Of a DNA stretch of 29,374 bases, positions 3,248-29,374 are shown piece after piece. The stretch spans positions 1 to 29,374 of IMG/VR virus record IMGVR_UViG_3300001473_000008. One strand, written 5' to 3'. A program made the translations under genes and the position numbers. Every line of letters starts with the position of its first letter. The stretch's first letter is position 1. Source of the DNA: a virus. Under the pieces are notes generated by a model. That model was not told the DNA's origin. It made no database searches and saw only the letters and a list, made by a program, of their open reading frames with translations.

Positions 3248-4876
3248 ATGCGAACATCAGTACCTTCAATTCCGCGCTCGGAAGTGCTTCCGGGGCAAGC
3301 GCAGCCGTCTGCGCAATACCTGCGGCCGGACCGCAGCGGATTTCTCGCCGGTTGGCCGCGTCCGAGCCTGCGCGAGGCGTCGAAAGATGTTCGCGAGGCT
3401 TGGGGATCGGTTGCATCCCGTGCGATTGAGTCGATCCACAATTCGGGTTGGATGAAAGGTGCGGTCGATCAGGCTGTCGGCGATACCATCGGCAATGGCC
3501 TGAAACTCACACCGAAACCTGACTGGCAGGTGTGCGGGTTCGCTAGTCAGGAAGAAGCGGGTGAATGGGCGCGCAATGCGGCGATGCGGTTTCGTTCCTA
3601 TGCCAACAACCCGATGGAATGCGATGCGCGCGGCAAGATGACCATCGCCAAAATGGCACGAACGCAGCTCAAATCCCACTATGCCTTTGGGGAGAGCGTC
3701 GCGCGGATCGTCCTGCGGCAACGTCCAAATTCTCTCACGCGCACGAAAGTGCAGCTTTTGAGCCCGCTGCGGATCACGCAGGAGACGCGTGAAGAGGTCC
3801 GTTTGCATCAAGGCGTCTATCAGGACGTTGATGGTATGGCGATCGGATATCGTGTCCGAGCTCGGCAAAACGGTTTTGACAAGACAGTCGATATGCTCGC
3901 GCGCGATAAAGACGGGCGGCCATTGATCATCCATACGTTTGACGGCGATGCTGATCAGACACGCGGAATTTCTCCGTTCGCAGCCATCCTGAAAGTTTTC
4001 CGGCAGGTTGATCAGCTTGCCGATGCCACACTCGTTGCGGCGCTTTTGCAGACTGTTTTCGCGGCGACGATCAAATCGAATGCCCTGTCCGAAGAGGTTT
4101 TTGAAGGTCTGAGCACCAAGGGCGAGGGCGAAGGACAGCCGCAAGTCTCAAGCGAACTTGAGACGTTTCTCGGCCTGAAAGAGGCATGGGCAAAGAACAC
4201 GAAACTCGATTTAGGCGCGCACGGTAAGATCGCGCACCTGTTCTTCGGTGAAGAGCTTGAGTTCCATAACACCAATCACCCACACAACAATTACCTGCCG
4301 TTTATGCGCAACTTATTGCGCGAGATCGCCCGGGCAATTGGTGTCTCTTATGAGGCTCTCGCCTTTGACTATGAGGGCGCGACTTACTCAAGCGTCCGTA
4401 TGGGTATTGCCTCACTCTGGCCGCAGGTTGTGAGCCGGCGTGAGGACCTGGTCGCACCTTTTTATCAAGCTGTTTACGACGCCTGGCTCGAAGAGCAGAT
4501 TTTCAATGGTTGGATACGGTTTCCCGGAGGGTTTCGGAATTTCCTGCGCGTTCGCGCCGCGGCAACGCAAGCCGACTGGAACGGTCCGGCCAAGCCGACC
4601 GCTGATGATTTGAAGTCTGCCAAATCCATGGGTGAACGTCTGGAGCGTGGTGTCACCAACCTTTCGATCGAGTGCGGTGAGCTTGGTTACGAGTGGGAAA
4701 GTGTTGCTGAACAGCGCGCCCGCGAAACCAAGCGATACGAGGATCTCGGCTTGTCCGACCCACACGCCTCGAAAGGATCACCGCTCGCCGGCGCGGATGA
4801 AAACGACGGTGAAGACGATGACGACGATAATGACGGCAACGATGAAGCCGGCGACAAGAACAAGGAGGACCAGTGA
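3248..4876 (+). CDS. Phage portal protein, lambda GpB family
   Basis: This ~542-aa protein forms the dodecameric DNA-entry ring at one capsid vertex. The chain has the GpB-type layout: an N-terminal helical segment, a central mixed domain (SPLRITQETREEVRLHQGVY, then RGISPFAAILKVFRQVDQLADA), and a conserved IGVSYEALAFDYEGATYSS stretch near 370-390. That last motif, the length and the position straight after the large terminase support the call. The C-terminal ~25 residues are almost all Asp/Glu/Asn/Gly, an unstructured acidic tail. ATG 3248 is preferred; an in-frame GTG at 3242 overlapping the terminase stop is the alternative. The stop overlaps the gpW start (TGATG). Confidence 0.95.
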   Translation: MRTSVPSIPRSEVLPGQAQPSAQYLRPDRSGFLAGWPRPSLREASKDVREAWGSVASRAIESIHNSGWMKGAVDQAVGDTIGNGLKLTPKPDWQVCGFASQEEAGEWARNAAMRFRSYANNPMECDARGKMTIAKMARTQLKSHYAFGESVARIVLRQRPNSLTRTKVQLLSPLRITQETREEVRLHQGVYQDVDGMAIGYRVRARQNGFDKTVDMLARDKDGRPLIIHTFDGDADQTRGISPFAAILKVFRQVDQLADATLVAALLQTVFAATIKSNALSEEVFEGLSTKGEGEGQPQVSSELETFLGLKEAWAKNTKLDLGAHGKIAHLFFGEELEFHNTNHPHNNYLPFMRNLLREIARAIGVSYEALAFDYEGATYSSVRMGIASLWPQVVSRREDLVAPFYQAVYDAWLEEQIFNGWIRFPGGFRNFLRVRAAATQADWNGPAKPTADDLKSAKSMGERLERGVTNLSIECGELGYEWESVAEQRARETKRYEDLGLSDPHASKGSPLAGADENDGEDDDDDNDGNDEAGDKNKEDQ

Positions 4877-26452: not shown

Positions 26453-27328
26453 CTACACGATTTCCGGCACCAAACGCTTGAGAACAGCTGCGATCAGGAT
26501 CGAGCCGATCAAAACGATTGGAAACAAAAGTGATCCGTCTCTAGGGATCGCATGCAGCGTGAGCGCAATAACGGCTGGATGGACAAGGTACATTCCGAGC
26601 GATAGTCCGGACAAGGTTTCGACAAGTTTTGTTTGAGGCAACTGGATTGCCATTGCAATCAGTACGACTAGTCCGGAAATCGCTAGCTGGGGTGTCATCA
26701 TCTCCATGCCGCCATAGAGAGCAGCTATGCCGCCACACGCCAGAGCCATCGGGGCAACTGTCTTGGTCGCGGCGCGTTGCATCAATAGTCCGGCGCATGC
26801 GGCTGGAATGACCGAAAACCATTGCGCAAATGGGATTGGCAGCTCTGCTGAATTGAAAATCCAAAGGGCAGTGACTGATAGCAGCACACAAACTATTGAA
26901 AGCAAGGGCAGGGGTGCCCGCGCCGGTATCGCTGCGCAAATCAGCAAGAACAGAAACGAGAACGGTAAGAACCATAGGTGCAAGGCTGTTCCAGTCAGCA
27001 CCATCCAGGGCGCGAACTCGCCAGAAAGGGATGTGCCGCTGACGATGCTCTGCGTAAGCTTGAGGGCGCCATAAATCGCGCTCCAAACAAGCCAGGGCAA
27101 GAGCAGCCTCTTCGCCTGCTGTTCGATCGGCTTGGCCGCTCCGAAATACACAAGCAGCATGACAAACATCGGCAAGGCGGCAAGGCCGATCCAACCACCA
27201 GGCGCGGCGCAATGGAACTGAATGATGCCGATAGCGCCAACGAACCGAAGCAGGTCGACACTCCCGTTTCTTGTTTTTTGATTGGGTTGCGCTCTCGGAA
27301 AGGTCTGAGCGGCAGTAAAAGCAAGCAT
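26453..27328 (-). CDS. Acyltransferase 3 (AT3/OafA-like) membrane protein
   Basis: This ~291-aa inner-membrane protein has about nine to ten hydrophobic helices. Near the N-terminus the AT3-type R-x10-H motif is intact (DLLRFVGAIGIIQFHCAAPG), followed by typical AT3 stretches (LPWLVWSAIYGALKL, LHLWFLPFSFLFLL, LSGLSLGMYLVHPAVIAL). The family transfers acyl groups, often acetyl, to O-antigen or other surface glycans. In a prophage this suggests receptor modification and lysogenic conversion. It is convergent with the tailspike gene. The start is uncertain: ATG 27328 is preferred, but an in-frame TTG at 27355 adds nine residues. It is short compared with 340-400 aa relatives. The 17-bp inverted repeat lies just upstream. 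Confidence 0.85.
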   Translation of the reverse strand: MLAFTAAQTFPRAQPNQKTRNGSVDLLRFVGAIGIIQFHCAAPGGWIGLAALPMFVMLLVYFGAAKPIEQQAKRLLLPWLVWSAIYGALKLTQSIVSGTSLSGEFAPWMVLTGTALHLWFLPFSFLFLLICAAIPARAPLPLLSIVCVLLSVTALWIFNSAELPIPFAQWFSVIPAACAGLLMQRAATKTVAPMALACGGIAALYGGMEMMTPQLAISGLVVLIAMAIQLPQTKLVETLSGLSLGMYLVHPAVIALTLHAIPRDGSLLFPIVLIGSILIAAVLKRLVPEIV

Positions 27329-27370
27329 TGAAAAGGTCTTTCTCGACGCTCTCAATGCTCATAAAACAGA

Positions 27371-27506
27371 ATTGGTTATAGTGTTTCGATGGACGGTGCA
27401 TTTGGAAACTGTAATTGACAACTAATTCTTGGTTGCGTAGCGTTCAACTTGAAACGCTTGAGTATTTTTACGCAACCCTCAGTGCTTGTGAAACACTATA
27501 ACCAAT
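27371..27506. repeat. 17-bp perfect inverted repeat flanking a 102-bp intergenic segment
   Basis: ATTGGTTATAGTGTTTC (27371-27387) and its exact complement (27490-27506) bracket the region between the divergent acyltransferase and recombinase genes. Inside are GGTTGCGTA/TACGCAACC (27431-27439/27469-27477) and AGCGTT/AACGCT (27439-27444/27453-27458). CGCAACCCT (27471-27479) also pairs with AGGGTTGCG (27507-27515). Each 17-mer contains TATAAC pointing toward its neighbouring gene. Candidate functions are recombinase target sites (inversion), divergent promoter/operator halves, or an attachment site. Confidence 0.9.
27415..27443 (+). promoter_or_regulatory. Candidate sigma70-type promoter inside the inverted-repeat segment
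   Basis: TTGACA (27415-27420), a 17-base spacer and TAGCGT (27438-27443) form a promoter-like pair pointing toward the recombinase gene. The -35 is perfect and the -10 is weak (3 of 6). If the 27371-27506 segment inverted, it would point at the acyltransferase. Confidence 0.4.
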
Positions 27507-27517
27507 AGGGTTGCGAC

Positions 27518-28075
27518 GTGGACGGCGGTCTCCAACTTTACGCGCCTGATGGCAGGCGCCTTTATCTCAATGGCAGCGAAAGGCATGCATTCCTTGAGGC
27601 TGCGCAGCGGTCTCCGGACCAGACCCGGCTGCTGTGTGAGGTGATGGCATATTCCGGGTGCCGGATCTCAGAAGCGCTTTCGTTGTCAGCGCAAAGCTTC
27701 CAGACGCAAACCGGTGTGGTGTCCATTCAGTCGCTCAAGAAGCGGAACAAGATCGTGTTTCGTGAGATCCCGCTTCCGCCGTCTCTGGTCGCGGACATAG
27801 GCACGACGTTTGCGAAAGGTCCTTCGCCGTTCTGGCCTATCTCCCGGCAAACGGCTTGGCGGCATTTGAAACACGTCATGATGATCGCCGGGATCGACGG
27901 GCCGCAGGCTAATCCGAAGGGGCTGCGACATGCCTTCGGCATTCACGCGATCGCGTCAAATGTTCCGCTTCACATGCTCCAACGTTGGCTTGGGCACGCG
28001 GACATGAAGACGACGGCGATCTACGCGCAGGCGGTTGGCCCTGAAGAGCGGTTGATTGCTGCGCGCATGTGGTGA
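27518..28075 (+). CDS. Short tyrosine recombinase (catalytic core only)
   Basis: This 185-aa site-specific recombinase has catalytic residues Arg49 (SGCRISEAL), Lys74/75 (SLKKRNK), Arg137 (PKGLRHAFG), His160 (WLGHADMKTT) and nucleophile Tyr169 (AIYAQ). The box II position usually His (HxxR) is Lys134 here. It lacks the N-terminal SAM-like and arm-binding domains of typical 350-400 aa phage integrases and is close in size to FimB/FimE (about 200 aa). GTG 27518 has AGGG at 27507-27510 as ribosome binding site. The adjacent 17-bp inverted repeat may be its substrate. Whether it integrates the phage, inverts the adjacent segment or resolves multimers cannot be decided here. Confidence 0.9.
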   Translation: MDGGLQLYAPDGRRLYLNGSERHAFLEAAQRSPDQTRLLCEVMAYSGCRISEALSLSAQSFQTQTGVVSIQSLKKRNKIVFREIPLPPSLVADIGTTFAKGPSPFWPISRQTAWRHLKHVMMIAGIDGPQANPKGLRHAFGIHAIASNVPLHMLQRWLGHADMKTTAIYAQAVGPEERLIAARMW

Positions 28076-29278: not shown

Positions 29279-29285
29279 GGGGCCT

Positions 29286-29374
29286 CTATTTTCTGTTCGC
29301 GGCGCTGATCATCGCGCGCCATAAATCGGTGAAGTCTGCGAAGACGGTTTTCGCTTCCGCATGCGCTTTGAAAT
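29286..29374 (-). CDS. Partial gene, C-terminal end only (5' end outside window)
   Basis: On the minus strand a frame is open from the window edge to TAG at 29286-29288, giving 28 residues that end FADFTDLWRAMISAANRK. The composition looks protein-like, and the stop lies eight bases before the next gene's ATG, so it fits the packed minus-strand cluster. It is too short to assign a function. Confidence 0.55.
   Translation of the reverse strand, partial: FKAHAEAKTVFADFTDLWRAMISAANRK

Follow-up and report, generated by a model that had tools for sequence, protein, structure and literature searches.

A candidate phage-borne inversion switch beside a glycan-modifying gene, with paired recombination sites that recur across its recombinase family

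In the fim switch of Escherichia coli (FimB/FimE, fimS), a core-only recombinase of about 200 aa is combined with a short invertible segment bounded by inverted repeats, and the trait concerned is a surface trait. The Xer/dif system serves chromosome dimer resolution, and in this it differs from the system described below. In excerpts of a study of bifidobacterial prophages, the Rin shufflon is predicted to rearrange the ends of a tail receptor-binding gene at 11-bp rix sites, and Rin is presented as an XerD-like enzyme that has a core-binding domain (PMC6109161). Excerpts of another report present the pdcB/pdcC switches of Clostridioides difficile, where site-specific inversion takes place upstream of c-di-GMP phosphodiesterase genes (PMC9286219), and excerpts of a read-based inversion survey give none of four alphaproteobacterial samples as positive (PMC5903667). 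Within the open literature, a scope that leaves out most subscription papers, the matches listed included neither the recombinase family considered here nor an invertible segment that is carried by a phage and adjoins a host-modification gene.

The window analysed here is the whole of a 29,374-base virus record (IMGVR_UViG_3300001473_000008) which encodes terminase, portal and tail genes; its virus infects marine bacteria. As in fim, a short segment bounded by inverted repeats adjoins a core-only recombinase of about 200 aa, and a surface trait is proposed. Unlike fim, the switch is phage-borne and its partner gene is glycan-modifying. Unlike the Rin shufflon, it has an intergenic segment beside a host-modification gene and a core-only enzyme. 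The features of the locus are as follows:

26453-27328, minus strand: AT3 acyltransferase gene, the proposed switched gene (PF01757, E 3.1e-15)
27324-27359: imperfect inverted repeat (15-nt arms, 80% complementary, 6 nt between them) spanning the AT3 start codon and leader
27363-27387: left recombination site (outer half AAAACAGAAT, spacer TGGTT, inner half ATAGTGTTTC), fitting the family site model
27388-27489: 102-bp segment proposed to invert; the site-to-site distance is 127 bp
27415-27443, plus strand: promoter-like TTGACA-17-TAGCGT, aimed at the recombinase gene
27439-27458, plus strand: palindrome AGCGTTcaacttgaAACGCT, overlapping the -10 hexamer and followed by a T-rich run
27490-27514: right recombination site (inner half GAAACACTAT, spacer AACCA, outer half ATAGGGTTGC), fitting the family site model
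27518-28075, plus strand: core-only tyrosine recombinase gene, the proposed invertase (185 aa, PF00589)

We consider it probable that this arrangement works as a self-contained inversion switch, encoded by the phage and adjacent to a glycan-modifying gene. The 185-aa recombinase would bind the two inverted 25-bp sites, 127 bp apart, and strand exchange within their complementary 5-bp spacers would flip the 102-bp segment between the AT3 and recombinase genes. Since the segment has promoter-like sequence, a flip should redirect transcription toward the AT3 gene or toward the recombinase gene, and surface-glycan modification would then be phase-variable in a lysogen. If so, the phage carries its own random switch altering the host surface, and surface glycans, and perhaps sensitivity to other phages, could vary among lysogens of a single clone.

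The locus was originally singled out for a perfect 17-bp inverted repeat around 102 bp between the divergent AT3 and recombinase genes. The coordinates of this repeat (27371-27387 and 27490-27506) are exact; it is the sole perfect 17-mer with an inverted copy at most 300 bp away in the whole window, and no comparable 17-mer inverted pair arose in 30 dinucleotide-preserving shuffles of the window. The repeat is a portion of two 25-bp sites, each made of two half-sites around a 5-bp spacer, a motif first read from the regions upstream of recombinase relatives; the spacer length of 5 bp is read from sequence, and the true overlap, set by the cleavage positions, may differ from it. The spacers of the window, TGGTT on the left and AACCA on the right, are exact reverse complements, so that the window holds two whole recombination sites inverted around a short segment, as in an invertible promoter switch. 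The unit is one 25-bp site at each end rather than the 17-mer. The two inner half-sites are identical, which means that a flip would leave both sites unchanged. Among phage relatives, 14-15 perfect bases of the repeat are kept rather than all 17, and both inverted 25-bp sites are kept. Matching spacers are retained at both sites in all six phage sequences, and the exact 17-mer is also present, perhaps by chance, in other viral contigs (L025 and L027-L030).

The genes lie close to the sites. The AT3 start codon common to relatives is at 27328, 34 bp outside the left site, and the recombinase GTG start is 3 bp past the right site. As in FimB/FimE-like core-only enzymes of about 200 aa, the catalytic domain takes up most of the 185-aa recombinase (PF00589 at residues 18-171, E 1.1e-20). 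R49, K74, R137, H160 and Y169, which we take to be the catalytic residues of a tyrosine recombinase, are invariant in 22 aligned recombinases, that of the window included; the intact R-K-R-H-Y set claimed for this short protein is thus borne out. However, its scores are far below the cut-offs of two models of tyrosine-type DNA invertases, presumably FimE and FimB, respectively: 39.4 bits for NF007371 (cut-off 222) and 21.8 bits for NF007370 (cut-off 221). The proposed switch of the window resembles fim in its workings, but its recombinase falls short of the cut-offs for the FimB/FimE family. An AlphaFold2 model of the recombinase has a pLDDT of 85.4, with low values in the last 11 residues. 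The solved folds nearest to this model are XerA and XerH, and the nearest solved sequences and folds taken together are XerA, XerC-like, XerD and XerH. Two half-sites around a short spacer are a further likeness to Xer/dif; unlike Xer/dif, the window recombinase is without a core-binding domain and its sites are paired, inverted and next to its own gene.

The sites were then followed across the recombinase family, viral relatives being represented by the best 80 of 152. In the more independent of two tests, a matrix built from phage half-sites alone was run on 44 non-phage rows, and the best two upstream windows had reverse-complementary spacers in 16 of them (2/1040 in single-base shuffles). 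Rows L091-L112, which were unseen when the idea arose, gave 10/22. In the second test, all loci were scored uniformly with a consensus set after the loci had been viewed; an inverted pair scoring at least 50 was found in 53 of 78 non-redundant loci, the remaining 25 scoring at most 42. None of 237 shuffles, which preserve base content only, had an inverted pair (maximum 42), and same-orientation pairs reached at most 44. The 78 loci exclude L002 and L007 (copies of the window and of L003), the fragments L009, L010 and L022, the repeats L113-L117, L201, L203, L206, L207, L209 and L213, the distant viral-scan matches L125-L192, L204 and L205 (both copies seen in L011) and L221 (second copy in G863); L011 was scored on its second recombinase copy, and an inverted pair is present at the first.

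Two designs emerged. In the short type (29 loci), both sites are upstream of the recombinase and 122-154 bp apart; in the long type (24 loci), they flank the recombinase gene and are 690-967 bp apart. Among 19 short-type loci there are 17 different spacers, with a mean identity of 39% between loci; these loci were picked for matching spacers, and the 100% match within a locus is by construction. On a recombinase tree of 71 rows, the architecture labels cluster (10 changes, against a mean of 33.9 when shuffled). The phage recombinases and that of L008 form a supported clade (100/99), which groups with L086, L087, L088, L090 and L096 with moderate support (93/75). The partner gene of the short type is an AT3 gene in five of the six phage sequences and a TylF-type methyltransferase gene in G006 (L006). 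It is a Porin_2 porin gene in L086, with L087 and L090 similar by eye, and an NTP transferase-like gene in L096; the partners of L091, L092, L109 and L121 have starts that by eye resemble signal peptides, and no Pfam hit. AT3, TylF-type methyltransferase and Porin_2 porin partners fit a surface switch. Taking the two designs together, we lean slightly towards a family not described before: core-only tyrosine invertases, mostly of Alphaproteobacteria, each having an inverted pair of 25-bp sites and a co-evolving 5-bp spacer of its own, with either a short segment between recombinase and partner or a longer one that contains the recombinase; the short design would have been captured by phages from a host envelope switch, making glycan-modifying genes phase-variable in lysogens. 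Capture is suggested by the moderately supported grouping of the phage clade with the Roseibium porin switches. The site rule (half-sites plus a reverse-matching spacer) offers a simple way to find more switches in Alphaproteobacteria.

Several loci of the family depart from these designs or add to them. At six plasmid loci (L031, L032, L033, L196, L198 and L199) a single near-palindromic site stands without a partner, which would suit dimer resolution; WGR-domain genes adjoin three of them (L031, L196 and L198). In L193, from a Sphingomonas parapaucimobilis plasmid, the site pair flanks a recombinase whose neighbours are an EAL gene and two genes with spore coat protein U domains. L212 and L222 are two recombinase copies with the same site pair that run in opposite directions less than 2 kb apart in one genome.

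An inverted state was found among the long-type loci. In four Sphingosinicella loci (L012, L014, L015 and L016) an EAL-domain gene is divergent to the recombinase (EAL shown for L012 and L016); in G674 (L208/L226) the EAL gene is downstream of the recombinase, and the L208 recombinase is 90% identical to that of L014. When G674 and L014 are compared, the inner 877-bp segment aligns directly, whereas the flanks (about 4.4 kb on the left, 3.1 kb on the right) match the opposite side of L014 as reverse complements. In G674 the outer half-sites are swapped, one of them perfectly and the second with a single mismatch, and the inner half-sites are not, which confines the crossover to roughly 10 bp around the spacer; the pieces compared were cut at the sites, and the crossover is placed by the letters of the half-sites, not by alignment ends. 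L012 and L015 agree with the flip, as does L016 except for most of one flank. Overall, of 16 long-type loci that have an EAL gene nearby (two of them with identical recombinases), 13 have it divergent to the recombinase; in the other 3, namely L013, L208 and the first L011 copy, it lies downstream. The G674 comparison supports inversion in the recombinase family, not in the phage itself. EAL partner genes in long-type relatives are also a likeness, by description, to pdcB/pdcC, whose host and locus are unrelated to those of the window. In L012, L014, L015, L016 and L226 the recombinase reading frame continues through the far site, so inversion would change the predicted C-terminal end of the recombinase.

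The sites might also be of the kind that recombines as a single-stranded hairpin (integron attC or CTX-phage type), with the two sites pairing with each other. The predicted single-strand fold of the site region is strong (z -4.5), and outer half-sites resemble each other more within a locus than from one locus to another (0.75 vs 0.64, 0/5000 permutations); both points favour this reading. However, for inner half-sites the gain in likeness within a locus is slight (0.66 vs 0.62, 314/5000 permutations), a gene separates the sites of the 24 long-type loci, and the segment is flipped in G674. We attach hardly any weight to hairpin recombination.

The 17-mers were also open to a reading without recombination, raised in the original prediction, in which each is the -10 or the regulator half-site of divergent promoters or operators. 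A TATAGT hexamer occurs in each 17-bp arm, and the palindrome within the segment, which with its T-rich run is terminator-like or operator-like, would also suit control of this kind. Nevertheless, operators need no match such as that seen between spacers, which vary from locus to locus and yet are reverse-complementary within each, and G674 has its segment flipped at such sites. This reading, which leaves the matched but divergent spacers unexplained, is in our opinion very unlikely.

Returning to the inversion switch, the promoter proposed to point at the recombinase is present as described: TTGACA (27415-27420) and TAGCGT (27438-27443) are 17 nt apart, and both hexamers are unchanged in 6/6 phage sequences. 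However, TAGCGT matches TATAAT at 3 of 6 positions, and a consensus promoter scan rejects the pair, its sole listing being a weak site on the opposite strand; the promoter is thus a putative one with a weak -10. TTGACA is directed toward the recombinase in the six phage sequences and toward the partner gene in L086, L087, L088 and L090. G004 (L004, around 4701-4750) has a different upstream stretch with a second TTGACA-17-TAGCGT, on the other strand and aimed at the AT3 gene.

Both segment orientations were found only in long-type relatives. In the six phage sequences (the window, L003/L007, L004, L005, L006 and L020), where orientation was judged from the flanks because a search pattern joining arm and interior also fits the unflipped junction on the opposite strand, there is no flipped copy of the segment. 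Among 300 pairs of short-type interiors, the 12 with z of at least 4.5 are all in the same orientation, and inverted pairs reach z 4.2 at most under a two-strand null, which is unconvincing given the number of pairs. Inverted interior matches of up to z 5.3 (L108/L121 and L087/L095) had been obtained with a weaker, one-strand null. Searches for flips among close relatives of short-type loci gave too few sequences for a verdict: a single plasmid record, which was the query; a single genome of the genus; two of six genomes, both already in the comparison; and one viral contig, which was again the query. The original prediction held that one orientation in deep reads and in all homologous loci would speak against it, and this is in part what was found, as the six phages and the strongly alignable short-type interiors each show a single orientation. 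Such uniformity means that the switch is strongly biased, that sampling is too thin or that the switch is locked.

A locked or vestigial switch would consist of sites left by a once-active inverter, with the segment now fixed or one-way as a divergent control region. Besides the single orientation, two disrupted genes point in that direction: the AT3 frame, open in the window, L005 and L020, is split over two frames in L003 (and altered at its front end in L004), and L020 has its recombinase match broken between two frames. These disruptions are counterpoints to a working switch, as are the weak promoter match, the 25/78 loci without an inverted pair and the fact that the flipped relative is long-type, not short-type. 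Against locking, however, the sites and matching spacers are kept in the six phages and the catalytic residues are kept in the aligned phage recombinases (window, L003 and L006). Moreover, active switches such as fim can be strongly biased to one orientation. We regard a locked switch as unlikely, and the core of the original prediction, a FimB-like invertible switch, is well supported by the full inverted sites, the spacers that match within a locus and vary between loci, the flipped relative and a separate integrase on two phage records, though no flipped phage copy was found.

The separate integrase bears on a further possibility, namely that the two sites make up the phage attachment site, with the small recombinase acting as the integrase. 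A tyrosine recombinase on a temperate-type phage would be in keeping with it, as would the end of the L003 virus record at the recombinase stop codon, where most homology between phage pairs also stops (L004 and L005 share more), and the presence of recombinase copies and fragments near tRNA-Leu genes in Roseibium/Labrenzia. However, both phage records examined (G003 and G005) carry a separate arm-type integrase (PF13356 + PF00589), so the small recombinase is not their sole integrase; the sites are inverted, no host junction was seen at either of them, and the same pair is found in chromosomal and plasmid loci. The attachment-site reading was rejected on these grounds as extremely unlikely.

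Homology between phage pairs mostly stops near the partner start codon (27328 in the window) and the recombinase stop (28075), for example in L006, L020 and L007. The phage module, from the start of the partner gene to the recombinase stop, behaves, on these alignments, as if exchanged as a unit. At L008 (4960-5573), close to a tRNA-Leu gene, a recombinase with the right site only is joined to what is left of another integrase, its truncated front half; a comparison against related genes of G042 and G044 did not locate the junction. Truncated copies of the recombinase gene are found downstream of tRNA-Leu(GAG), three in L009 and one in L010. The last 95 bases of the window (29280-29374) recur as a direct repeat shortly downstream in a longer phage record (L002, 6969-7063).
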